A stretch of DNA of 64,000 nucleotides from Actinokineospora terrae. GTDB lineage: Bacteria; Actinomycetota; Actinomycetes; Mycobacteriales; Pseudonocardiaceae. Every line of letters starts with the position of its first letter. The first letter of the stretch is position 1. Position numbers and translations under genes: made by a program. The stretch is taken from positions 294,022-358,021 of the forward strand of contig NZ_FOGI01000002.1 in NCBI RefSeq assembly GCF_900111175.1, read 5' to 3'. Shown here piece by piece: positions 11,300 to 23,353 of the stretch. The notes beneath the pieces were generated by a model that saw only the letters and a list, made by a program, of their open reading frames with translations, made no database searches and was not told the DNA's origin.

Positions 11300-11902
11300 G
11301 TGACCACTTTCGGTGCCGTGCTGTGTGATGTCGACGGGGTGCTGCGGCTGTGGGACGCCGATGCGATGTCCACAGTGGATCGCGAGTTCGGCTTGGTCGG
11401 GGGAACCCTGGCCGGGGCGGCGTTCCGAGAGGCGAGGCTGGGGCCCGCGATCGTCGGGCAGGTGACGGACGCGGGGTGGCGGTCGGGTGTCGCCGAGGAC
11501 CTGGCCGAGGTGTGCGGTTCCGTCGAGCGGGCGGGCGAGGTGGTCGCGGCCTGGACCCTCATCAGCGGCGAGGTCGACCAAGCCGTGAAGGAGATCCTGT
11601 CGGGGTTGCGGGGGAAGGTGCCGGTGGGTCTGGTGTCGAACGCGACCACCCGGCTTGAGGACGACCTCCGAGCGCTGGGTGTGATGGACGCCGTGGACTT
11701 CGTGGTCAGCAGCGCTCGGGTCGGGGTGGCGAAGCCGGACGCGGGGATCTACCTGGCAGCGGCCAGGGAAGCGGGCGTACCGCCGCAGGAGTGCCTGTTC
11801 ATCGACGACACCGAGGCGAACATCGTCGGGGCGAGGGCCGTGGGGATGACCGGCGTGCATTACCGGCGGATCGCGGACCTCACCGCGGTAGGCCTGTGGT
11901 GA
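11300..11902 (+). CDS. HAD-superfamily hydrolase (subclass IA)
   Basis: A 200-residue phosphatase-like protein with the four HAD motifs: LCDVDGV (nucleophile Asp10 and acid Asp12), LVSNAT, a KPD lysine and FIDDTEANI. A small helical cap lies between motifs I and II, as in subclass IA. The start is GTG 11300, 5 bases after the decayed dehydrogenase. Its 3' end overlaps that of the convergent aminopeptidase gene by 23 bases. The substrate is unknown; small phosphorylated metabolites are usual. Confidence 0.85.
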   Translation: MTTFGAVLCDVDGVLRLWDADAMSTVDREFGLVGGTLAGAAFREARLGPAIVGQVTDAGWRSGVAEDLAEVCGSVERAGEVVAAWTLISGEVDQAVKEILSGLRGKVPVGLVSNATTRLEDDLRALGVMDAVDFVVSSARVGVAKPDAGIYLAAAREAGVPPQECLFIDDTEANIVGARAVGMTGVHYRRIADLTAVGLW

Positions 11903-13256
11903 CGAGGTCGATGAGGGTGCGGACGGCGAACCCGGTGGGGCCTTGGGGCCATTCGCCGTGGGTTCGGTCGGTGAGGGCGGTGCCCTGGATGTCCAGGTGC
12001 GCCCAGGGGGCGGTGACGAAGTGCTGGAGGAACAGTCCCGCCAACAACGCCGTGCCGTGGCGGACGCCGGTGGTGTAGTTGACCAGGTCGGCGATGGTCG
12101 AGGCCAATTGAGACCGGTAGCTCGGCGGAAGTGGCAGCTGCCACAGGGGTTCACCCGCGCGCTTGCCCGCGGCGAGGATGGCGTCGATCAGGGGCTGTTC
12201 GTTGCCCATGACCGCGGCGATGTCCCGGCCCAGGGCGATCGCGGCGGCATCGGTGAGGGTGGCGACGTCGATGATGGCGGATGGGTCAGTCTCGCCTGCC
12301 AGGACGAGGGCGTCGGCCAGGATGAGGCGCCCCTCGGCGTCGGCGTTGCGGATCTCGACGGTGGTGCCGTCGCGGACGCGCAGGACATCGCCGATGCGCA
12401 TCGGGTCCACTGTGGCCATGTTCTCGGTGAGCGGCAGCCACGCGTCCACCGGGTGCGGGCACGACAGCGGTCCCAGCGCGGACATGGCGGCGAGGACGGT
12501 GGCCGCTCCCGCCATGTCCGCCTTCATGTCGATCATCTGCGGGGTCGGTTTCAGCGACAGCCCGCCCGCGTCGAACGTGACCCCCTTGCCCACCAACGCG
12601 ATCGGCGCACCCTGGTCCGGCAAGTGTCGCAACCGGACCAGCCGAGGCGGCTGGCGAGATCCGCGCGCGACCCCCAGGAGCCCACCGAGCCGTTCCTCGG
12701 CGATCCGGTGCTCGTCCCAGACCTCGCAGCTCAAGCCGCAAGCACGGGCGACCTCCACGGCCCGATCGGCGAGGGCGCTCGGAGTGAGGACATCTCCCGG
12801 CTCACTCACCAGGTCACGTGCGAGGGTCACCGCCTCGGCCAGCACGAGCGCGGTCCGCAACTCGGCGGCGTCGGCGTCCGGCGCGATCAGGTCGATACGC
12901 GCAGGCGCAGTCAGCCTGGCGTCACTCCGGTAGCGGTCGAACCGGTACGCGCCAAGCACGAACCCCTCGACCAGCGGTCGCAAGAGCCCGGCGGGCACGG
13001 TGATCGACAGGTGCGAGTATCCCCGGACCTCCCGGGCGAGGCACCCCGCGGCGGCCCGAACAGCGTCCGCGCCCACCTCGCCCGAGTCGCCGAGTCCGAA
13101 AAGGACAACATCCGGCGCCCGGACGACCTGGCCGACCGACCCGTCAAACCCCACGGCGGCCAAGTACTCGGCCGACACCACATCAGGCAGCCGGTCCGAG
13201 TATGCCGGTAGCACGGACATGCCCGCACCAGCCGATGCCAATCGCCACTCGGTCAT
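11880..13256 (-). CDS. Leucyl aminopeptidase family (M17) peptidase
   Basis: A 458-residue protein with a divergent N-terminal domain and a canonical M17 catalytic domain. The metal and active-site block reads VGKGVTFDAGGLSLKP then MIDMKADMAGAATV, and the family signature appears as NADAEGRLILADAL (usually NTDAEGRL). It should release N-terminal residues from peptides using two divalent metals, as a cytoplasmic hexamer. Its ATG overlaps the stop of the TPR gene (ATGA), so it is the last gene of the peptide cluster. Final trimming of the modified peptide after leader removal is an inference from position; a housekeeping role is the alternative. Confidence 0.9.
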   Translation of the reverse strand: MTEWRLASAGAGMSVLPAYSDRLPDVVSAEYLAAVGFDGSVGQVVRAPDVVLFGLGDSGEVGADAVRAAAGCLAREVRGYSHLSITVPAGLLRPLVEGFVLGAYRFDRYRSDARLTAPARIDLIAPDADAAELRTALVLAEAVTLARDLVSEPGDVLTPSALADRAVEVARACGLSCEVWDEHRIAEERLGGLLGVARGSRQPPRLVRLRHLPDQGAPIALVGKGVTFDAGGLSLKPTPQMIDMKADMAGAATVLAAMSALGPLSCPHPVDAWLPLTENMATVDPMRIGDVLRVRDGTTVEIRNADAEGRLILADALVLAGETDPSAIIDVATLTDAAAIALGRDIAAVMGNEQPLIDAILAAGKRAGEPLWQLPLPPSYRSQLASTIADLVNYTTGVRHGTALLAGLFLQHFVTAPWAHLDIQGTALTDRTHGEWPQGPTGFAVRTLIDLVTTGLPR

Positions 13257-15727
13257 CGGCTCCGCCGCGCGGCGCCCCACGCCTCCAGGTCACGCGCGTA
13301 CTCCGCCGCCACACCCGCCAACGCCCCCGACGCGACCCGAGCCCAGCCACGCGCCGCCGACACCGCGTGCGGATCGACCCGCAGCGCCTGCACGAAGCAG
13401 TCCTCGGCCAACACCGGCAATCCCGCCCGGTCGAAACACTCCCCCGCCAACGCGAATCCCCGCGCCGTCCCGATAGGACCGAGCCGGGCCGTCCGCAGGT
13501 ACGACTCCCCCGCCTCCCGCTCACGACCCTCCGCGAGCAGCACCTCGGCCAACTCCATGTGCGTCTTCGGCTCGTACGGGTCGATGGTCAGCACTTCCTC
13601 GACCAGCCGCCTGCCCTTCTCGTGCTCGCCGAACCCGAACGCCTCCTTGGACCGGCTCTCCAGGCAGGCCCGCAGGTTCTCCCTGGCCAGGAACTCCTCG
13701 TACCGGGTGCTCGCGGGCACCGACCGGGCCAACTCCTCGGCGCGGTCCATCTCGCGGGCCAGCTGGTCGCGGTCGCGGCGCAGGAACGGCACGTAGGTGA
13801 CGCTGCGGTAGAAGCGGCTCTCCATCATCGCCTTCTCGAACGGCGAGTGCTCCTCCCCCGCCAGCAGTTCATCGAGGCTCGCCTGCGCCTTGTCCCGCCA
13901 CAGCGACGCGGCCTCCAGGGACTTGGTCTCCCTGGCGTGGAACACGACCGCGAACACGGCGATGACGAACCGCAGGTGCGTCGGGCACGCCGGGTGGTCG
14001 GCGATCTCGAACGACGCGGTCGGTTCCGCCACGCCCGCCGAACCGACCGAGCCGACGTAGCGCACGACATCGCGCCAGTGCCACAACCGCAACTGCGCGG
14101 GCGTGGTCAACTCGGCGACGGGTCGAGGCGGCAGCAGGTCGAGCACGAGCTTCCCGAACCCGAGCCGGAACAGCACGACCGCGGTGAGGTACTGCCGTTC
14201 GACGTCGGCGGTCGGGAACCGCGCCACCCACGCGCACAGCTGGTCCCACGCGGGCGTCCGCAGGTGGGCGGGCAGGTCGGCGGGGTGCGTGACGGCGAAC
14301 TCGGAGAGGCCGGACTCGCGGACCAGGTTGGCGCGGAACGCGGGCGGCATCAACCGCTGCCAGTTGACCTCCGGCGGTGCCCCCGCCTCGGCGAACTCGT
14401 AGGCCAGGGTGGGTAGAGAGGCGTAGAGACCGGGAGAGCGGGACTCGCCGAGGTTGAAGTACGCCGCGTACATCCGGTAGTGCCAGTTGTGCTCGTACGG
14501 GTGCTCGGCGGGCAGCGAGATCATCTCGGCGAGCGGGCCGTCGGACAGCTCGGTCAGGGCTTCCCGGGTGCGGGCGGACCGGGGCGCGGTGCGGTAGGCG
14601 CGTTCGGCGAGCACCCGGGCGAACTCGTCGTGCCCGAGGGCCTTGGCGCAGCGCACGGCGGCCAGCAGCGCGAACGCGGTGCCGTACGGGCCGAGCCGGG
14701 CGGCGTCGAGGTATTCGGCCAGCGCCTTCTCGTTGTCCCCCAGGCGTTCCGTCGCCTGGGCGGCCTGCATGCGGATCTTGACGTCGTACGGGTCGAGCGC
14801 CAGTCCCTCGGCGATGGACGCGGACTCGCCCGCGCGATCACCCCGGCGCACGGCGATGTCGACGCGGCGGTCGATGATCCTGCGCCGCATCTCGACGGTC
14901 AGCGCTTCCCCATCGGCGTCGACCGGCGGTTCGAGCACGTCCGCGGCCTCGGCGAGCAGCTGCCACGCCTCGTCGAAGGCGCTCTGCCGTTCGGCGTGCA
15001 TCACCCGGCGCAGCAGGAGTCTGGCGTGCAGCAGGGCGTGTTCGAAGTCGGTGAGGTCGAGTCCTTTTCGGACCTCCTCGGCCCGGGCGAACAGCTCCGG
15101 GGTGCCGGAGTCGTCGGCGGCGTGCCGGGTGACGAGGTAGCCCCACGCGGCGACCGCCTGGGCGTGCGCCACGGTCGGCGCGGGATTGTCGACCAACGGC
15201 GAATAGGCCGCTCTAGCACGGTCCGAAAGGCCTTCGATGGCGAATAGAGCACTAGCCCTTGACCATTGCGCAATGGCCAGGACCGGGTCCGCGCAGTCGC
15301 TTTCCGAAAGGTCCGCGGGGAGCACTTCCAGCACCGAATCCGGCAGGCACACGGCGATCAGCCACTGGGCAAGCCCGGCGCGGTCGACATCGTCGAGATC
15401 GGCCCGGTGCTCGTATGCCTCGGCCATCCGCCGCCACGTCGGCGACGCCAGGTCCGCGGCCAACCCGAGCGGGTCGCGCACCCGGTACCCGGCGAGCCGC
15501 GCCTCCCCGTCGAGCAGGCTCCGGTAGCTGCCCGGCATGGTCATCCCGAACCGCGGCGCGGTGGGCTGGCGGCGCTCGAAGCGGCGGGCGGCGAGCAGGG
15601 ATCCCCTGGCGTGCACCGTGGTCAGCGCCGAGTCGGCGCCGTCCAGGTAGGGCCGGTGGACCTCGAAGGTGAGCCAACTCGGCGCGGCGGCCCCGATGTG
15701 GCCGTGCGCCCGTTCCCAGCGGTCCAT
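13253..15727 (-). CDS. Large TPR-type protein of the peptide cluster
   Basis: An 824-residue soluble all-helical protein with no known catalytic motif. Residues 1-180 match no family I recognise (they begin MDRWERAHGHIGAA). Two homologous TPR-like blocks lie at about 311-385 and 715-789; both run from xDPYxxK through YLxxARLGPxGTA to a final ERAYRTAP or VQALRVDP helix, so the protein has an internal duplication. The start ATG 15727 is preceded by GAGG. It follows the short peptide gene after a hairpin and is translationally coupled to the aminopeptidase. It could bind the peptide or act as a scaffold or regulator; an unrecognised modifying activity is possible. TPR repeats are seen; the role is inferred. 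Confidence 0.75.
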   Translation of the reverse strand: MDRWERAHGHIGAAAPSWLTFEVHRPYLDGADSALTTVHARGSLLAARRFERRQPTAPRFGMTMPGSYRSLLDGEARLAGYRVRDPLGLAADLASPTWRRMAEAYEHRADLDDVDRAGLAQWLIAVCLPDSVLEVLPADLSESDCADPVLAIAQWSRASALFAIEGLSDRARAAYSPLVDNPAPTVAHAQAVAAWGYLVTRHAADDSGTPELFARAEEVRKGLDLTDFEHALLHARLLLRRVMHAERQSAFDEAWQLLAEAADVLEPPVDADGEALTVEMRRRIIDRRVDIAVRRGDRAGESASIAEGLALDPYDVKIRMQAAQATERLGDNEKALAEYLDAARLGPYGTAFALLAAVRCAKALGHDEFARVLAERAYRTAPRSARTREALTELSDGPLAEMISLPAEHPYEHNWHYRMYAAYFNLGESRSPGLYASLPTLAYEFAEAGAPPEVNWQRLMPPAFRANLVRESGLSEFAVTHPADLPAHLRTPAWDQLCAWVARFPTADVERQYLTAVVLFRLGFGKLVLDLLPPRPVAELTTPAQLRLWHWRDVVRYVGSVGSAGVAEPTASFEIADHPACPTHLRFVIAVFAVVFHARETKSLEAASLWRDKAQASLDELLAGEEHSPFEKAMMESRFYRSVTYVPFLRRDRDQLAREMDRAEELARSVPASTRYEEFLARENLRACLESRSKEAFGFGEHEKGRRLVEEVLTIDPYEPKTHMELAEVLLAEGREREAGESYLRTARLGPIGTARGFALAGECFDRAGLPVLAEDCFVQALRVDPHAVSAARGWARVASGALAGVAAEYARDLEAWGAARRSR

Positions 15728-15758
15728 CGCCTCGCGTTCTCGTCGTCGGATGGGGTGA

Positions 15759-15781
15759 CCGGCCCCGTGGCGCGGGGCCGG
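15759..15781 (-). terminator. Attenuator-like hairpin after the peptide gene
   Basis: Perfect 8-bp stem CCGGCCCC/GGGGCCGG with a 7-base loop, 11 bases after the peptide stop and 32 bases before the TPR start. With no T run it would stop only part of transcription or protect the upstream message, giving more peptide than enzyme transcript. This arrangement is common in peptide operons. Confidence 0.6.
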
Positions 15782-15791
15782 TCCAGGTGGG

Positions 15792-15881
15792 TCAGGCGTC
15801 GACCAGGCACACCCAGCAGTCAGCGGCGCCGGTGCTGATCTCGACCTCGTCCGCGAGCGATTCCCAAGTCTCGTAGGCCAT
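15792..15881 (-). CDS. Candidate ribosomal-peptide (RiPP-like) precursor
   Basis: A 29-residue reading frame with an excellent ribosome site: AAGGAG at 15888-15893, 6 bases before ATG 15881. The N-terminal half is acidic and amphipathic (MAYETWESLADEVE), as in leader peptides. The C-terminal half, TGAADCWVCLVDA, has two Cys in CxxC spacing, a Ser-Thr pair just upstream and a short hydrophobic end. It has its own promoter-like element (15916-15944), is followed by a hairpin (15759-15781), and sits between a PLP enzyme/exporter pair and a TPR/peptidase pair. I do not recognise the peptide family. Modification is inferred from context only; a small unmodified regulatory or structural peptide is the alternative. 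Confidence 0.7.
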   Translation of the reverse strand: MAYETWESLADEVEISTGAADCWVCLVDA

Positions 15882-15915
15882 TTCCGACTCCTTGGTGCGA
15901 GGAACAGTGAATCGG

Positions 15916-15944
15916 AACATAGCAGCGGGTCCATGGCCTAACAA
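15916..15944 (-). promoter_or_regulatory. Putative sigma-70-type promoter of the peptide gene
   Basis: On the minus strand TTGTTA is followed after 17 bases by TATGTT. Each hexamer matches four of six consensus positions. The expected transcript would start near 15909, giving a leader of about 28 bases before the ATG. The element is unusually A/T-rich for this DNA. Confidence 0.5.
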
Positions 15945-15990
15945 GACTGCTTTCAGCCGATGCCCGCCGGTGCACACCGAACATTTCCGG

Positions 15991-17091
15991 TCAATGAACA
16001 CGAAGGGTGATGGCGGCCACGAGCGCGTCCACCTCGGCTTCCCCGGTCCAGTAGTGCGGCGCCGCGCGGACGAGTCCATCCGGGTGCGACACGTGGATGC
16101 CGGAGGCCACGAGTTCGGTTGCCAGCGCGACGGATTCCACCGCTGGGTGGCTGAACCCGACGATGCCGGACCACGCGTCGTCCTCGGTGCTCGCGGAAAT
16201 GGCGCACCCGGCGTTGCGCAGTCCGGCGCAGAGCCGCTGTGTCAAACGGCGCACCCGGTCGGCGATCGCCGCGATGCCCACTTCGGACACTTCGGCCAGC
16301 GTCTCGGCGAGTCCCACCATGCCGAGCACGTCGTACATCCCACCCTCGGCGCGCGCGGCCGTGGGCAGTGGTGACAGGTCGTAGCGGAAGTGCCCGGCGC
16401 CCTTGGTGAGCATGTCGTTGGCGCCCTGGAAGCCGAACCACCCACCCGGCAGGCGCAGTCGCGGCAGGTGCTCGCGGCGGCAGAAGAAGATCCCGGTGCC
16501 GACCGGACCGCAGAGCCACTTGTGCGCGCCCGCGGCGAGGAAGTCGACCGGGGTGTCGGCCATCGACAGCGGCAGCACCCCGAGGCTCTGCACCGCGTCC
16601 ACGCTGACCAGGGCGCCTGCCCGGTGGGCGAGCGCGCACACGGCGTCGAGGTCGATGCGGAAGCCGGTGGCGAAGTTGACGTGGCTGACCGCGACCAGCC
16701 GGGTGGCGGGGCCGATGGCGGCCTCGACGTCCTCCAACCGGTACCCGCCGTCGCGCATCGGCACCCAGACCAGCCGGGCACCGCGGGCCCGCCACGGGTG
16801 GACGTTGGCGGGGAAGTCCCGGTCGAACACCACGACCTCGTCGCCCGGCCGCCAGTCCAGGCCGTCGGCGACCAGGTGCAGGCCGGTCGAGGTGTTGGTG
16901 ACGAGGGCGATCTCGTCGGTCGAGCAGGCCAGCAGGTCGGCGGCCAGTGCCCGGGCCCGGCGGCGCGCGGGGAAGATGCGGCCGATCTCGGCGCTGCCGT
17001 GCGGGAGGACGTCGACCAGCGCGTCGCGCATGGCGGTGACGGCCGGTTGGCGGAGCTTGCCGAGTCCCGCGTAGTCGAGGTAGGCGGTCAC
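15991..17091 (-). CDS. Class V aminotransferase / cysteine-desulfurase-like PLP enzyme
   Basis: A 366-residue fold-type I PLP enzyme of the class V group (isopenicillin-N epimerase or cysteine desulfurase-like). Visible features are LDYAGLGKL at the N-terminus, TNTSTGLHLVADGL in the cofactor pocket, the PLP Asp region LVSVDAVQSLGVLP, and AAGAHKWLCGP carrying the Schiff-base Lys. The C-terminal domain ends VRAAPHYWTGEAEVDALV. Its GTG 17091 overlaps the MFS stop (GTGA). About 110 bases separate it from the peptide gene. Possible roles are sulfur or cysteine chemistry on the peptide, epimerisation, or an unrelated amino-acid reaction; sequence alone does not decide. Confidence 0.85.
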   Translation of the reverse strand: MTAYLDYAGLGKLRQPAVTAMRDALVDVLPHGSAEIGRIFPARRRARALAADLLACSTDEIALVTNTSTGLHLVADGLDWRPGDEVVVFDRDFPANVHPWRARGARLVWVPMRDGGYRLEDVEAAIGPATRLVAVSHVNFATGFRIDLDAVCALAHRAGALVSVDAVQSLGVLPLSMADTPVDFLAAGAHKWLCGPVGTGIFFCRREHLPRLRLPGGWFGFQGANDMLTKGAGHFRYDLSPLPTAARAEGGMYDVLGMVGLAETLAEVSEVGIAAIADRVRRLTQRLCAGLRNAGCAISASTEDDAWSGIVGFSHPAVESVALATELVASGIHVSHPDGLVRAAPHYWTGEAEVDALVAAITLRVH

Positions 17092-18266
17092 CGGACACGC
17101 AACCGGACAGCGGCGACGGCGGCGACCACGAGCGGGACGCCGTGCAGCAGCAACACCCACTGCGGCACGATGTCCGGGGTGAGCAGCAGGCTGGTCGCGA
17201 GCAGCCCGGCCATGAACCCGCTGTTCACGACGATCTGGGACAGGCCGAACACCGGTCCGCGCCGCTCGTCGGGCAGGCGTTGCACGGCCTGCTTGAACGC
17301 GACCTCGCTGAAGGCGTCCCCGATCCCGGCGAGCGCGGCGCAGGCCAGGCGCAGTCCCCAGTCGTCGAACCAGAAGATGCCGATGAACCCGAGCGACATG
17401 ACGATCGTGGCGAGGCAGAACACCACCCCAGGCGCGCGGGCGATGAGGCTGGTCGCCAGCGGGCGCAAGACGAACCCGGCGAGCAGCAGCCCGGCCGCCC
17501 AGACACCCCAGATGAGGCCCGCGACCTGGGTGGGTGTCGCCGGGTTCAGCTCGCTGCCGAGGATGGGGATGCCGACGTGCTGCGACGAACTGCCGAACGC
17601 GTCGAGGCAGCGGACCACGAACAGCGGCACCAGCCCGGCGGCGACGACCGCGGGCCAGACGACCTTCTTGTCGGTTGTGTCCGCGGTGGGGCCGTTCTCC
17701 CGGAAGGGGACGCGGATCGCGACGAGCACGAGCGCGGAAAGGGCGTAGCTGGCGGCGTCGAGGGCGAAGACGCCTTGGAACCCGATGAGCGGCACGGCCA
17801 ACGCGGACAGGCTCATGCCGAGCATGAACGCGACGCCCTTGAGCGCGGCGAGCACGCTGTTGACCAGCTGCGTCCTCTCGCCCGCCAGCACCGGTGTCGC
17901 CGCGCTCAACGTGCCCTCGAACACCGACCGCCCGATGCCGACCAGGAACACCGCGACGTAGAGCTGCGGCTGCCCGGGCAGCAGGGCGAGGGTGAGCAGC
18001 GCCGCCATCCGCACCAGGTCGGCGGTGATCATCACCGCCCGCCGGTCCCACCGCGCGCCGTGCGCGTGCCCGAGCCTGCCCCCCACGATCGCCCCCGCGT
18101 ACAGGGACACGCTCACCAACCCCGTGGCCAACGCCGACCGGCTCGACTCCCACACGAAGATCGACAAACACACGAAGTCCAACGCGTACCCGACATCGGA
18201 CACCACCTTGGCCCCCAGCAACAACCCCAGCTGCCGCCGCGCCACAACCCCACTGCTCTCCACCAC
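17088..18266 (-). CDS. MFS exporter of the peptide cluster
   Basis: A 392-residue, 12-helix permease of the enterobactin/macrolide exporter-like type. It opens RRQLGLLLGAKVVSDVGYAL, has the cytoplasmic loop GHAHGARWDRRAVM after helix 2, and the second-half repeat AFSEVAFKQAVQRLPDERRG. It heads the PLP enzyme gene, with which it overlaps by four bases. Export of the cluster product, or of a small compound, is the natural inference; nothing shows the substrate. Confidence 0.85.
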   Translation of the reverse strand: MVESSGVVARRQLGLLLGAKVVSDVGYALDFVCLSIFVWESSRSALATGLVSVSLYAGAIVGGRLGHAHGARWDRRAVMITADLVRMAALLTLALLPGQPQLYVAVFLVGIGRSVFEGTLSAATPVLAGERTQLVNSVLAALKGVAFMLGMSLSALAVPLIGFQGVFALDAASYALSALVLVAIRVPFRENGPTADTTDKKVVWPAVVAAGLVPLFVVRCLDAFGSSSQHVGIPILGSELNPATPTQVAGLIWGVWAAGLLLAGFVLRPLATSLIARAPGVVFCLATIVMSLGFIGIFWFDDWGLRLACAALAGIGDAFSEVAFKQAVQRLPDERRGPVFGLSQIVVNSGFMAGLLATSLLLTPDIVPQWVLLLHGVPLVVAAVAAVRLRVR

Positions 18267-19099: not shown

Positions 19100-21361
19100 T
19101 CAGACTTCGGGGCCCAGGGTGAACCACACCGTCGTGCCCTCGGCGGGGGTGGACTCCAGGCGCAGGTGGCCGTTGTGGCGTTCGACGATGCGGGACACGA
19201 TCGCCAGGCCCGCGCCGTGGCCGCCGCCGTGGGAGTCGCGGGGGTGCAGGCGGCGGAACAGGCGGAAGACGTCCTCCTGGTGCGCCTGCGGGATCCCGAT
19301 GCCGTTGTCGCGGACGAACAGGGTCGCGCCGACCGCGCCGACCGCCACCGTGCGCGGGGGCTCCGGGTTGGCGTACTTCGCGGCGTTGACCAGCAGGTTC
19401 ACCAGGATCTCCTGGAGCCGCTCGGCGTCGGCGACCACCACGACCCCCGGCTCGGGCAGGATCACCTCGACCGCGCGCTCGGCGAGCCGGATGCCCGCGA
19501 CCTCCATGGCCTGCTCGGTGGCGGCCCGCAGGTCGACCTCGACCGGGTGCAGCGCGCCCTGGCCGAGCTGGGCGAAGTGCAGCAGGCTGTTGATCAGCTC
19601 GTCCATCCGCTGGGCCAGCTTCTGGATGGTGCCCAGCCTGCGCGCGGTGGTGGTGTCGAGGTCGGGGGCGTCCTCGGTGATGAACGCCGCCGTGGTCGCG
19701 ATGCCCCGCAGCGGTTCCTTCATCTCGTGCGCGGCGACGTGGGTGAAGGTGTCGAGGTCGTCGTTGGCGCGGCGCAGTTCGTCGTTGAGGGCGGACAGCT
19801 CGGACGCGCGGCGCAGGGCGGCGGTGCGCAGCGCGCTGCCGAACTCCTCCGCGACCGCCGCGTCACCCGCGGTCCACGGCAGACAACGCCCCCGCACCAC
19901 GGCCTGGTAGACCGCCGACGACCCGCGCGGGGTGAGCCGCTGCCCGTGCGGTCCCAGACGGACAGGCTGGGCCGGGTCAGTCGCCCAGGTGCGGGACGCG
20001 CGCCGCTCACCGCGGGTCCAGACGACCAGGTCATCCCCACCGTCCAAAGACAGCACCAATACGCCGCTCAGCTCGGCAGCGCTACCGACGAACGCCGGGT
20101 CTAGCTCGGCGAGACTCTCGCAGCTCCACACCCGCCCTGCGGCCAACGGCGGCACATGACCCCACAGTGCCTCTATGACGCGTGGGTCCAGCGGCGCGCC
20201 CTCGGCGGCGGTCTGACCCGCGAACCGCACCAGCACGGCGTCGGCCTGGACGAGGGCGATCAGCTCGTCGCTGTTGGCCAGCAGCGACCCGGGCAGATCC
20301 GAGTACGGACCGGTGAGCAGGCTCAACAGCGCTGTGCGGGCGTGCTGGCGGGCGATGGTGGCCTCGGTGTCCTGCAGGGCCGCCAGCTGCAGCGACAGCG
20401 TGACGCCGAAGAACTCGCAGGCCGCCCTGACCTCGGCGCTGAGCTTGCGGGGCGCGAGGCCGTGGCAGGCGATGAGCCCCCACAGCCTGCCGTCGTTGAG
20501 CAGCGACACCGACATCGACGACCGCACGCCGATGTTGCGCAGGTACTCCAGGTGGAACCCGGACACCGTCCGCAGCGCCGAGTCCGACAGGTCCAGCGGC
20601 TCGCCCACCTGCGGGACCAGCAGCGCGGTGTCGTCGTCGACGTCGTGGATGACCCGGATCCAGTTGCGCTCGTAGAGCCTGCGGGCCTGCGGCGGGATGT
20701 CTGTGGCCGGGAACCAGAGCCCCAGCCACGGCTCCACCCCCTCGGCGCGCGACTCGGCGATCACCTCGCCCGGCCCGGCCTGGCCCTCGAACCGGTAGGC
20801 GACCACCCGGTCGTAGCCGGTCAGCGCCCGGATCTCGGCGACCGCGGCGGCGCACACGTCGACCACGGTGCGGCCGTGCTGGAGCTTGGCCAGCGCGGCG
20901 CGGACCGCGGGGTAGAAGTGCGAGAACACGAACGGGCGCTCGGCGGTGGCCGGTTCCAGCTCGACGACGAGCCGCCCGTCGGCGCGGTACACCGTGGCGT
21001 CGAACTCGCGCCCGGCCACGGTGAGGCTGAGCAGCCCGCGGTCGCCGGTGGGGGCGTCGAGCGTGCGGTGCACGGCGGCCAGCGCGTCCGCACCGAAAAG
21101 GGCCTCGGCGGACGACCCGAGCACCGCGTCCTGGCTGAGGCCGAGCAGCGACTCGCAGTTGGAGCTGACGACCTCGACCCGCCCGTCCGCGCCGATGGCC
21201 AGCAGGGCCCCGTAGGACTGGATGCCGCCGAGCCGGTGGATCGGCTCGTTCAGGCAGACCGACAGGTCGAACGAGGTCCCGGATTCCACCTCGGCGGCCC
21301 TGGCGCGGTCGTCCGGCTGCCAGACCGTGTCGTCGCCAGTGCCCACACCCACCCCGTTCAC
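19100..21361 (-). CDS. Bacteriophytochrome-type sensor histidine kinase
   Basis: A 753-residue kinase with PAS-GAF-PHY-kinase order. Near the N-terminus VCLNEPIHRLGGIQSYGALL matches the bacteriophytochrome block and keeps the biliverdin-binding Cys (about residue 36). The GAF domain has FPATDIPPQARRLYERNWIR with the invariant DIP and LWGLIACHG with the chromophore His. The dimerisation helix carries AAHEMKEPLRG (His about 545); the ATPase domain has NLLVNAAKYA, VRDNGIGIP and HGAGLAIVSRIVERH. It should bind a bilin and control a response regulator by phosphorylation. The GTG at 21361 follows GGGGA; two more in-frame GTGs lie within 15 bases. A PP2C phosphatase and CheY-like gene are divergent. 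Confidence 0.88.
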   Translation of the reverse strand: MNGVGVGTGDDTVWQPDDRARAAEVESGTSFDLSVCLNEPIHRLGGIQSYGALLAIGADGRVEVVSSNCESLLGLSQDAVLGSSAEALFGADALAAVHRTLDAPTGDRGLLSLTVAGREFDATVYRADGRLVVELEPATAERPFVFSHFYPAVRAALAKLQHGRTVVDVCAAAVAEIRALTGYDRVVAYRFEGQAGPGEVIAESRAEGVEPWLGLWFPATDIPPQARRLYERNWIRVIHDVDDDTALLVPQVGEPLDLSDSALRTVSGFHLEYLRNIGVRSSMSVSLLNDGRLWGLIACHGLAPRKLSAEVRAACEFFGVTLSLQLAALQDTEATIARQHARTALLSLLTGPYSDLPGSLLANSDELIALVQADAVLVRFAGQTAAEGAPLDPRVIEALWGHVPPLAAGRVWSCESLAELDPAFVGSAAELSGVLVLSLDGGDDLVVWTRGERRASRTWATDPAQPVRLGPHGQRLTPRGSSAVYQAVVRGRCLPWTAGDAAVAEEFGSALRTAALRRASELSALNDELRRANDDLDTFTHVAAHEMKEPLRGIATTAAFITEDAPDLDTTTARRLGTIQKLAQRMDELINSLLHFAQLGQGALHPVEVDLRAATEQAMEVAGIRLAERAVEVILPEPGVVVVADAERLQEILVNLLVNAAKYANPEPPRTVAVGAVGATLFVRDNGIGIPQAHQEDVFRLFRRLHPRDSHGGGHGAGLAIVSRIVERHNGHLRLESTPAEGTTVWFTLGPEV

Positions 21362-21439
21362 CGTCCCCGAGCCGCGCGGCCGGGCCCGGGGGCAGACCCT
21401 ACAGTTGGACCGGCGTCCCCGAACGAGCGAAGTGGAAGT

Positions 21440-23353
21440 GTGCACCCCAACCGACAGGGCCACTGGCCGGACCGACTGCACAGGCTGTGGCGGTCCGCGT
21501 TCGCGGCCGTGAGCACCCGGCAGTTCGCGCACGAGCTCTACACCGGCCTGCTCGTGCTCCCCGGCGTCCGCGCCGTGCTCGGTGCCCGCCTCTCGCCCGC
21601 CGACGAGGTCCTCGTCACCCGCTGGGCGGACGAGTCCGGGCTGTCCAGCGGACCGAGGGGGCTCGCCGCCGACGCCACCGAGCTGCCCTCCGACCCCGGT
21701 GAGTACCTGCTGCCGTTGGCCGAGCTGACCCGGCGCTCCCCCGGTATGGCCGCCAGGGTGGCCGCGGTGGGGGGCGACGGGCTGCTGATGACGGTCTTCG
21801 GCGTCGCCGAGAGCGGGCGGGGGCTGATCGCGCTGGCCACCTCGGCCCGGGAGAGCGACGTCGACGAGCTCCGCACCGCGTTGACGCAGGTGGTCGAGCT
21901 GGTGGTCGCCGCGGACCACCGGATCAGCGAGCAGCGCGCCCTGGAGGACCACCAGGCGCTCGACGCGCTGCTGGCGGAGGCGTCGCTGCGGATGGACGCC
22001 TCGCTCGACATCGCCGACACGCTGCGCGCGGTGCTGCGGATGGTCGTCCCGGCGCTGGCCGACGGCGCGGCCATCCACATCCGGCGCGACGAGTTGATGG
22101 TGCAGATCGCCGCCGCCCACGTCGACGCGCGGCGGGAGCGGCTGCTGGCCGAGCACCTGCGGGGCGGGCGCTGGGCGGGTGAGCCGGTCGTCACGGGCAC
22201 GGCCAGGGCGGTCGACGGCCCGTACCCGGCGGGGCTGCCGGTCGAGGTGGGCCTGGACACGATGACGATGGGGGTCCTGCGCGCGCGGGGGCGCGACGTC
22301 GGCCTGCTCACGTTCTTCCACCGCGGCCAGTCCGACCGGCGGGTGTCCACCCGGTTCCTGCACGACCTGGCCGGGCGCGCGGCGCTGGCGATCGACAACG
22401 CGACCCTCTACGAGCAGCGCCGCCACGACGTCACCTCGCTGCAGCAGCACCTGCTGCCCGCGGTCCTGCCGACCGTGCCGGGGCTGGAGTTCGCGGCCGG
22501 GTACAACGCGGCCGACCACGCGCTGGAGGTGGGCGGCGACTTCTACGGTGTCGTCGACCAGCCGGACGGCACGGTGGTGGCGCTGGTCGGCGACGTCTGC
22601 GGGCGCGGCGCGGCGGCCACGGCGGTCACCGGTCTGGCCCGGCACACCCTGGAGACGGTGCTCGCCCAGGGCGGACCGGCGCCACACGCGCTCGACATCC
22701 TCAACCGCAAGATGCTGCGCGAGCGGATCTCGCGGTTCCTGACGATCGCCACGGCGACGTTGTCGCAGCGTGAGCGGGGTGAGGTGCTGGTCGAGACCCA
22801 GTCGGCCGGGCACCCGCCGCCGCTGGTCGTGCGCCGGGACGGGTCCGTGGAGGAGTCGGGGTGCCGTGGGCGGCTCGTGGGGGTGCTGCCGCGGTTGGAC
22901 CTGCGCCCCGGTGTGAGCACGCTGCTGCCCGGGGAGCTGTTGGTGCTGTTCTCCGATGGGCTGATCGAGGCGCGCGACGCCGATGGGGGCTTCTATGGCG
23001 ACACCGAGCTGAACCTGACTCTGACCCGGTCGCGTGATCTACCGCTGCCCGCGATGGTTGACGCTCTCTTGGCCGGTTCTGACCGGTACCACGTGAACGA
23101 CGACGTCGCGGTGCTCGTGGTCCGCAACCTGGGCGTCACCACTCTTGACCGCGAGCTGCCGCCGGACGAGATGCCGGGTGCTGTTACCGACGCACTGCGG
23201 CAGCTCGGCCACCCGGCGGCACTCCCCGACCACCTGCTCCAGTTCACCGCCCCCTGCGCGATCACCGCGAAGGTCTCGGGCGACGCGACGTGGGCGCGGA
23301 TCGAGCTCACGAACCCCAACGGAGGAACCGCGTGGACCGAACTGACAGCGTGA
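21440..23353 (+). CDS. GAF-PP2C (SpoIIE/RsbU-like) phosphatase
   Basis: A 637-residue cytoplasmic protein. The N-terminal 170 residues are of unknown fold, a GAF-like sensor spans about 180-330, and a PP2C/SpoIIE catalytic domain spans about 340-560 (LQQHLLPAVLPTVPGLEFAA, LEVGGDFYGVV, VVALVGDVCGRGAAATAV, LLVLFSDGLIEARDADG, NDDVAVLVVRN). The metal-binding aspartates are kept. The extra C-terminal 80 residues contain a second small beta domain. It is expected to dephosphorylate an anti-sigma antagonist or similar partner. The start is GTG 21440. Its last codons overlap the response-regulator gene, so the pair is coupled. Confidence 0.87.
   Translation: MHPNRQGHWPDRLHRLWRSAFAAVSTRQFAHELYTGLLVLPGVRAVLGARLSPADEVLVTRWADESGLSSGPRGLAADATELPSDPGEYLLPLAELTRRSPGMAARVAAVGGDGLLMTVFGVAESGRGLIALATSARESDVDELRTALTQVVELVVAADHRISEQRALEDHQALDALLAEASLRMDASLDIADTLRAVLRMVVPALADGAAIHIRRDELMVQIAAAHVDARRERLLAEHLRGGRWAGEPVVTGTARAVDGPYPAGLPVEVGLDTMTMGVLRARGRDVGLLTFFHRGQSDRRVSTRFLHDLAGRAALAIDNATLYEQRRHDVTSLQQHLLPAVLPTVPGLEFAAGYNAADHALEVGGDFYGVVDQPDGTVVALVGDVCGRGAAATAVTGLARHTLETVLAQGGPAPHALDILNRKMLRERISRFLTIATATLSQRERGEVLVETQSAGHPPPLVVRRDGSVEESGCRGRLVGVLPRLDLRPGVSTLLPGELLVLFSDGLIEARDADGGFYGDTELNLTLTRSRDLPLPAMVDALLAGSDRYHVNDDVAVLVVRNLGVTTLDRELPPDEMPGAVTDALRQLGHPAALPDHLLQFTAPCAITAKVSGDATWARIELTNPNGGTAWTELTA

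Follow-up and report, generated by a model that had tools for sequence, protein, structure and literature searches.

The window, a 64,000-nucleotide stretch of the Actinokineospora terrae genome (contig NZ_FOGI01000002.1), carries five genes on its minus strand at 11880-18266. They are, in this order, genes for a major facilitator superfamily (MFS) protein, a class V pyridoxal 5'-phosphate (PLP) enzyme, a 29-residue peptide, a tetratricopeptide repeat (TPR) protein and an M17 aminopeptidase. The whole cassette of five genes is about 6.4 kb long, and its features are as follows:

17088-18266, minus strand: MFS exporter gene, drug/proton antiporter type (Pfam MFS_1, E 4.5e-21)
15991-17091, minus strand: class V (fold type I) PLP enzyme with the desulfurase/C-DES fold (Aminotran_5, E 4.9e-46); GTG start
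15916-15944, minus strand: promoter-like site TTGTTA-17-TATGTT upstream of the peptide gene, from a pattern scan
15888-15893, minus strand: ribosome binding site AAGGAG of the peptide gene, read from the sequence, six bases 5' of the peptide ATG
15792-15881, minus strand: 29-residue precursor-like peptide MAYETWESLADEVEISTGAADCWVCLVDA (24 copies in 23 loci, pN/pS 0.25)
15757-15783, minus strand: G+C-rich stem-loop between the peptide and TPR genes (predicted stem), presumably an attenuator or a protector of the mRNA 3' end
13253-15727, minus strand: TPR protein of 824 residues, two-lobed and internally duplicated (half-against-half alignment, structure model)
11880-13256, minus strand: M17 aminopeptidase, candidate trimming peptidase (Peptidase_M17, E 4.2e-107); ATG start

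The stop codon of the MFS gene and the GTG start of the PLP gene overlap by four bases (GTGA), as do the stop of the TPR gene and the ATG start of the M17 gene (ATGA); an in-frame GTG for the M17 gene is also present at 13280. In the other listed loci a purine-rich stretch lies at a position similar to that of the AAGGAG site. The order and positions of the five genes, their coupling by overlap and the good ribosome site on the peptide had all been put forward in the original prediction, made from the letters of this window, and each is borne out by the sequence reading.

Comparison across loci shows that the 29-codon open reading frame (ORF) is a real gene. The peptide has a Trp/acidic N-terminal half, with the pattern E-x-W-E-x-L-x-D-x-x-E, followed by a C-terminal half with T-x-x-A-D-C-W-[VT]-C, in its longer form [ST]-T-x-x-A-D-C-W-[VT]-C-[LF]-x-D. 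Residues E4, W6, E7, L9, D11, E14, T17, A20, D21, C22, W23, C25 and D28 are invariant in 24/24 peptides. Among them are Cys22, Cys25 and Thr17, which the original prediction had singled out together with position 16, where Ser or Thr is found. The residues after D28 vary in length and kind. Differences at codon positions 1, 2 and 3 of the peptide number 683, 513 and 1581 (26 codons, 22 distinct codings), and the mean proportions of synonymous (pS) and nonsynonymous (pN) differences are 0.376 and 0.095, with a mean pN/pS of 0.25. Changes are mostly synonymous, a mark of purifying selection, and this pattern is not shown by the other two frames of the peptide strand. Neither an unconserved frame nor frame-breaking changes, the two signs against the gene named at the outset, were seen in the 24 copies and 23 loci. 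Identity to the window's genes in the first eight loci is 86-100% for the peptide, 61-89% for the PLP enzyme, 66-85% for the TPR protein and 60-79% for the M17 protein, and over all 24 copies the peptide is 65-100% identical along 26 common residues. Because it is so strongly conserved, the near-fixed core suggests one fixed product. Two different peptide copies stand in tandem in one locus (L075:8683-8913), the first with S19 and M8, which are among the few core variations. No family was found for the peptide in Pfam, NCBIfam, PADLOC or plasmids; 17 peptides searched against NCBIfam gave a single match with E 0.11, and in PHROGs there was no match for the window peptide and a weak one for the L052 peptide (E 0.009).

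A stem of 9-18 bp is predicted 3' of the peptide stop in 23/23 loci. Its mean z is -3.0 against dinucleotide shuffles, and z is below -2 in 17/23 loci, compared with 6/23 for stretches of equal length upstream of the peptide. Upstream, a promoter-like pair is present at -63 to -67 in seven loci of the window's genus, and a looser match in 12 of the 16 other loci with none in four (L075 scanned 5' of its second copy), both from pattern scans run without a chance control. Because of the promoter-like site 5' and the hairpin 3' of the peptide gene, its mRNA would be in excess of that of its partners.

The cassette was read in 23 loci with 24 peptide copies from Pseudonocardiaceae, Streptomycetaceae and Micromonosporaceae, with identical gene order; a search of other actinomycete genomes had been suggested as a check in the original prediction. 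The five genes are all present in 21 loci, and the remaining two are cut by contig ends: L050 is a 3.8-kb contig with PLP, peptide and TPR genes only, and L052 is cut within the PLP gene. An MFS orthologue heads the cassette in 21/23 loci, the other two being those truncated. Among 390 genomes of the window's family, a full-length TPR orthologue is encoded in eight (the window's own counted), with the same five-gene order in 8/8, and 7 of the 16 listed genomes of the window's genus have the cassette. A scan of GTDB species with the TPR alignment, keyed on the two short patterns YEPKTHM and APSWLTFE and so missing relatives with neither, gave 31 pattern matches leading to 15 loci. Six of these were already known (Actinokineospora globicatena, A. 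diospyrosa, A. pegani, A. spheciospongiae, Actinokineospora sp. NBRC 105648 and Actinocrispum wychmicini), and nine were new, in Kitasatospora, Streptomyces, Streptacidiphilus and Allorhizocola. Searches starting from the peptide used a hidden Markov model of 17 peptides on sampled genomes, with at most 20 candidates scored per genome. In the family of Kitasatospora humi 14/394 genomes matched (eight known, six new), all at the cassette; in the class of Allorhizocola 3/394 matched, namely Allorhizocola, the A. spheciospongiae locus and one weak match; and in the window's order 4/397 matched, all known loci. Strong matches were found only at the cassette. It is a discrete module, patchily held.

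Several candidates were set aside. The weak peptide match (G900, E 6e-4) has no cassette gene in the 17 kb around it, and was taken as chance and left uncounted. Generic matches to the TPR protein occur in 45 of the 390 family genomes, just eight of which have the full-length orthologue, and around none of the 22 partial TPR matches (L010-L031) is there a match to the PLP, MFS or M17 protein with E < 1e-3 in the neighbouring 1.5 kb or so. No generally shared sixth gene was found among the flanking ORFs of the 17 loci compared (all but L072-L077), of which L050 and L052 have little flank. Apart from L037 and L038, which share a neighbourhood, flanking similarities are limited to one ORF group across four loci, with 155 bits at best (L053 against L046) and about 50 bits for the other two, possibly chance frames, and to three pairs at 60-104 bits. 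The best of them joins cassette-adjacent ORFs of two Streptomycetaceae loci, L053:14177-15478 and L046:905-1681, with 42% identity, and a second shared neighbour is possible there. Only L037 and L038 have neighbourhoods that clearly resemble each other; next to the cassette they carry what look by eye like a TetR-like regulator and a short-chain dehydrogenase. As assembled, the PLP frames of L049 and L053 and the TPR frame of L053 look interrupted, by sequencing error or decay.

The PLP enzyme was modelled by AlphaFold with a predicted local distance difference test score (pLDDT) of 83.6. By Z its closest solved structure is the cystine C-S lyase C-DES (1elq; Z 41.5, rmsd 2.2, 354 aligned residues, 24% identity), with cysteine desulfurases next, from 39.7; ranking by Foldseek E-value puts SufS first. 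The fold and the PLP-binding Lys, Asp and Gln of class V enzymes are present, and K191, D165, Q168 and R342 are invariant in 15/15, R342 being by alignment presumably the carboxylate-binding Arg. The active-site Cys loop of desulfurases is shortened in alignment to desulfurase 5b7s, its Cys is replaced, and no Cys is conserved there. In SufS and C-DES a His stacks on PLP and aids C-S cleavage. The invariant F93 stands in the alignments where SufS has the first His of its EHH motif and where C-DES has its His; we take this to be the H121 named in the title of 7ceq. Since the Cys loop is missing and Phe93 replaces the His, the enzyme has the fold of a desulfurase, though probably not its chemistry. 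PLP chemistry requires a free amine for the external aldimine, and the substrate of this enzyme probably needs a free carboxylate as well. An internal Cys has neither. Given also the missing Cys loop and the Phe at the His position, direct modification of such a Cys is chemically unlikely, and it is the least likely form that the RiPP-like reading described below could take. A peptide cysteine-modifying PLP enzyme is the weakest claim of the original prediction. Substrates that would fit are an exposed N-terminus, an amino acid that is freed or that is linked by an isopeptide or disulfide bond, or a free co-substrate; an amino terminus exposed by the M17 protein, or a freed amino acid, is preferred. 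A search of the enzyme's own genome gave 15 matches, with the cassette gene far ahead. Matches to SspA and DndA in PADLOC are those expected from the fold and were set aside as a sign of defence.

The two halves of the TPR protein are 26% identical over 391 columns (E 1e-12), an internal duplication, and its model has a pLDDT of 89.5. Its structural neighbours include peptide-binding TPR proteins, the best of them LGN (Z 20.5), with RapI (Z 16.2) and kinesin light chain in complex with a torsinA peptide (Z 15.8) and with a Trp-acidic peptide (Z 14.0), although for helical repeats such Z values do not necessarily mean kinship. The TPR protein, to which the original prediction assigned no role, may be the recognition component that holds the peptide leader, a guess made attractive by the peptide's own Trp/acidic half. 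In the M17 protein, a Pfam match, K224, D229, K236, D247, D306, E308 and R310 are invariant in 8/8 aligned orthologues; these are presumably its metal ligands and its catalytic Lys and Arg. Two further M17 genes with 43-45% identity to it are present in the A. terrae genome. The MFS protein resembles drug/proton antiporters, and its NCBIfam match to 2A0121 (E 3.7e-20) is far below the family cut-off.

The best explanation, which seems to have about an even chance of being right, is that the self-contained five-gene cassette makes one fixed peptide-derived product by a route like that of ribosomally synthesized and post-translationally modified peptides (RiPPs). The 29-residue precursor would be produced in excess over the proteins encoded downstream, and the two-lobed TPR superhelix would hold its Trp/acidic N-terminal half and present the C-terminal half. 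The M17 aminopeptidase would trim the peptide from its N-terminus, and the class V PLP enzyme would then act, either on the amino group thereby uncovered at the terminus or on an amino acid that is released from the core or attached to it. Candidate reactions are transamination, epimerisation, decarboxylation and beta-elimination, and the MFS protein would export the product. The gene and its conservation, the recurrence of the cassette, the folds as predicted and the kept catalytic residues are in hand; we infer the role of the peptide as substrate, the order of the steps, the binding of the leader by the TPR protein, the chemistry, the surplus of peptide mRNA and the export. As RiPP pathways require, a short precursor is encoded and conserved with its cluster (24 copies in 23 loci, under purifying selection). 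Pairwise distances of the MFS, PLP, TPR and M17 proteins, which correlate at 0.85-0.95 over 19/23 loci (without L049, L050, L052 and L053), also speak for this explanation, as do the constant gene order, the confinement of strong peptide matches to the cassette, the failure to find a generally shared sixth gene, the tandem peptides of L075, the hairpin, the kept residues of the M17 and PLP proteins, the likeness of the TPR model to peptide-binding proteins, and precedents in daptides, methanobactin and the ammosamide cluster. The original prediction had spoken of a complete pathway; its precursor-like peptide, enzyme, peptidase and exporter do recur together as a cassette, and production of a RiPP by them stays a conditional part of the claim.

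Several points weigh against this RiPP-like pathway. The lead of the peptide in conservation shrinks with distance, and in the most distant locus, L052, the peptide is 65% identical compared with 59% for the PLP enzyme and 57% for the TPR protein. The z of the hairpin is just -1.99 in the window and -0.67 in L033. The correlation of pairwise protein distances lacks a control gene, and shared ancestry alone could yield much of it. No PqqD or RiPP recognition element (RRE) match from Pfam is listed for the TPR or PLP protein up to E 10, with filters that drop most matches above 0.1; the TPR protein may replace the RRE. RiPP cores are usually more variable than leaders, and here both halves are near-fixed. 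As modification machinery, a single PLP enzyme is thin. Free amino acids are frequent substrates of class V enzymes with this fold, and the PLP enzyme may never touch the peptide, whose modification, binding and export are all deduced.

The peptide could instead be a carrier, as in the pearlins, and not the product, an alternative that is unlikely and stands first among those weighed. An amino-acid-derived small molecule would be built on it or at its C-terminus with the PLP enzyme, released by the peptidase and exported. A near-invariant peptide with a variable tail after D28 is consistent with this, and a class V enzyme with a kept Arg, presumably for a carboxylate, suits an amino acid with a free carboxylate. 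The ammosamide scaffold-peptide cluster encodes, besides a TPR protein, peptidases, a transporter and what is putatively an aminotransferase (PMC12424672). A carrier is disfavoured by the search for ligases, as no peptide-aminoacyl-tRNA ligase or other ligase was matched in the five cassette proteins or ten neighbouring ORFs of the window (the searched set), and by the failure to find a generally shared sixth gene.

Signalling is quite unlikely. There the peptide would serve as a pheromone or as an intracellular ligand, with the TPR protein as its sensor; the MFS protein would export it, the M17 protein would mature or destroy it, and the PLP enzyme would make a co-signal. Rap-type TPR proteins do bind short peptides, and RapI, with Z 16.2, is a structural neighbour, but the TPR protein gave no match to a DNA-binding or helix-turn-helix domain, the peptide sequence lacks a hydrophobic stretch for a signal, and the PLP gene is present in all loci, though cut or interrupted in some.

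Sulfur chemistry, in which a C-DES-like lyase would act on a mixed disulfide of free Cys with the peptide CxxC to give a peptide persulfide or trisulfide, is improbable. C-DES is the top neighbour by Z (41.5) and was solved with a cofactor-linked cystine (title of 1n31), a mixed disulfide would provide the free amine and carboxylate, and C22 and C25 are invariant. The invariant Phe in place of the His of C-DES and SufS nevertheless argues against it, and the lead of C-DES over desulfurases is modest (41.5 against 39.7), with SufS ranked first by Foldseek. An equally poor prospect is that the peptide is no precursor and remains attached, as a small subunit or a regulator, to the TPR or PLP protein in an otherwise ordinary amino-acid pathway. 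This would explain why both halves are conserved and the core is not diversified, but the hairpin and promoter-like site suggest a higher dosage than that of its partners, and L075 has two different tandem copies.

Least credible of all is a lanthipeptide-like core matured in trans, in which a synthetase from elsewhere in the genome would dehydrate S/T16 and T17 and bridge them to C22 and C25: the two conserved hydroxy residues and two conserved Cys would fit and LANC_like genes occur in 22/23 host genomes, but no such enzyme lies within the cassette, and a general LanC-type route in trans is unlikely because G016 (99% complete) has the cassette with no LANC_like match (LanC-free class V synthetases not searched for).

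Around the cassette, family searches of the ten neighbouring window ORFs recognized a HAD hydrolase, a phytochrome-type kinase, a SpoIIE protein, an NmrA-like protein and a TetR regulator, with no match for the others. The HAD-type hydrolase ORF (11300-11902, plus strand) runs towards the M17 gene, and the ends of the two share 23 bases. Two long ORFs, 19100-22813 (minus strand) and 20156-23353 (plus strand), overlap on opposite strands. On the minus strand, phytochrome-type histidine kinase domains (PAS_2, GAF, PHY, HisKA, HATPase_c) span about 19115-21256; on the plus strand, a SpoIIE phosphatase domain spans about 22562-23125. Because of this placement both listed starts are probably too early.

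The absence of known RiPP synthetases, claimed in the original prediction, holds, as no known RiPP enzyme was matched in the searched set. This includes LanC-like cyclases, lantibiotic-dehydratase-type proteins, which the ligases of pearlins would have matched, and YcaO, genes for which are present somewhere in 22/23 host genomes. Pyrroloquinoline quinone and mycofactocin also arise from a fixed small precursor peptide that gives a single product; unlike the cassette, their pathways use radical S-adenosylmethionine enzymes and an RRE protein. The cassette enzyme shares with SufS and C-DES (PDB 7e6f, 1elq) the fold and the kept Schiff-base Lys, Asp, Gln and Arg, and differs from them in the missing Cys loop, Phe for His and an identity of 20-28% in the rows shown.

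Closest to the cassette come daptides, methanobactin MbnN and the TPR protein AmmC2 of the ammosamide cluster. In the daptide pathway a PLP aminotransferase likewise acts on a ribosomal peptide (PMC10036551). Class III aminotransferases are the outgroups of the daptide enzyme there, whereas the cassette enzyme is class V. Daptides also need an RRE protein, a methyltransferase, a membrane peptidase and an oxidative decarboxylase (PMC10036551), none of which is found here. Their aminotransferase and decarboxylase act on a C-terminal Thr; no decarboxylase was matched in the searched set, and a C-terminal Thr is present in only 2/24 peptides (L044 and L077). In methanobactin, the aminotransferase MbnN removes the amino group from the first residue of a ribosomal peptide that contains Cys; MbnBC is also required there, and no such oxidase is in the cassette (PMC8788703). 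Ammosamide and other pearlins have a short scaffold peptide with the TPR protein AmmC2, peptidases and a transporter, and no role is assigned there to AmmC2, which is likened here by description and not by sequence; their peptide-aminoacyl-tRNA ligases were not found here (PMC12424672). The main text of decRiPPter (PMC7794033), whose tables may list the cassette, has aminotransferases among its candidates and no mention of tetratricopeptide or aminopeptidase. A text search of the literature for five peptide-sequence fragments found none, and no RiPP system with class V PLP, TPR or M17 proteins was found, mostly among papers outside subscription.

The cassette and its peptide are solid, and within the searches made they are undescribed. 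A new RiPP class, with the cassette as its founding member, is proposed tentatively, at somewhat less than an even chance. In it a TPR superhelix would take the place of an RRE in recognizing the leader; tailoring would fall to a class V PLP enzyme alone, which would act on an amino group from the core that the M17 protein exposes; and the five-gene cassette, spread among Actinomycetes, would yield one near-invariant product derived from CW[VT]C. Its five genes (about 6.4 kb) and near-invariant peptide make it testable in a single heterologous host, and a fixed product patchily spread over three families suggests a useful, unidentified metabolite. If true, it would be a minimal RiPP-like pathway without class-defining RiPP enzymes, one that mining from those enzymes would miss, and class V PLP chemistry and TPR-based leader recognition would join the known modes of ribosomal-peptide tailoring.

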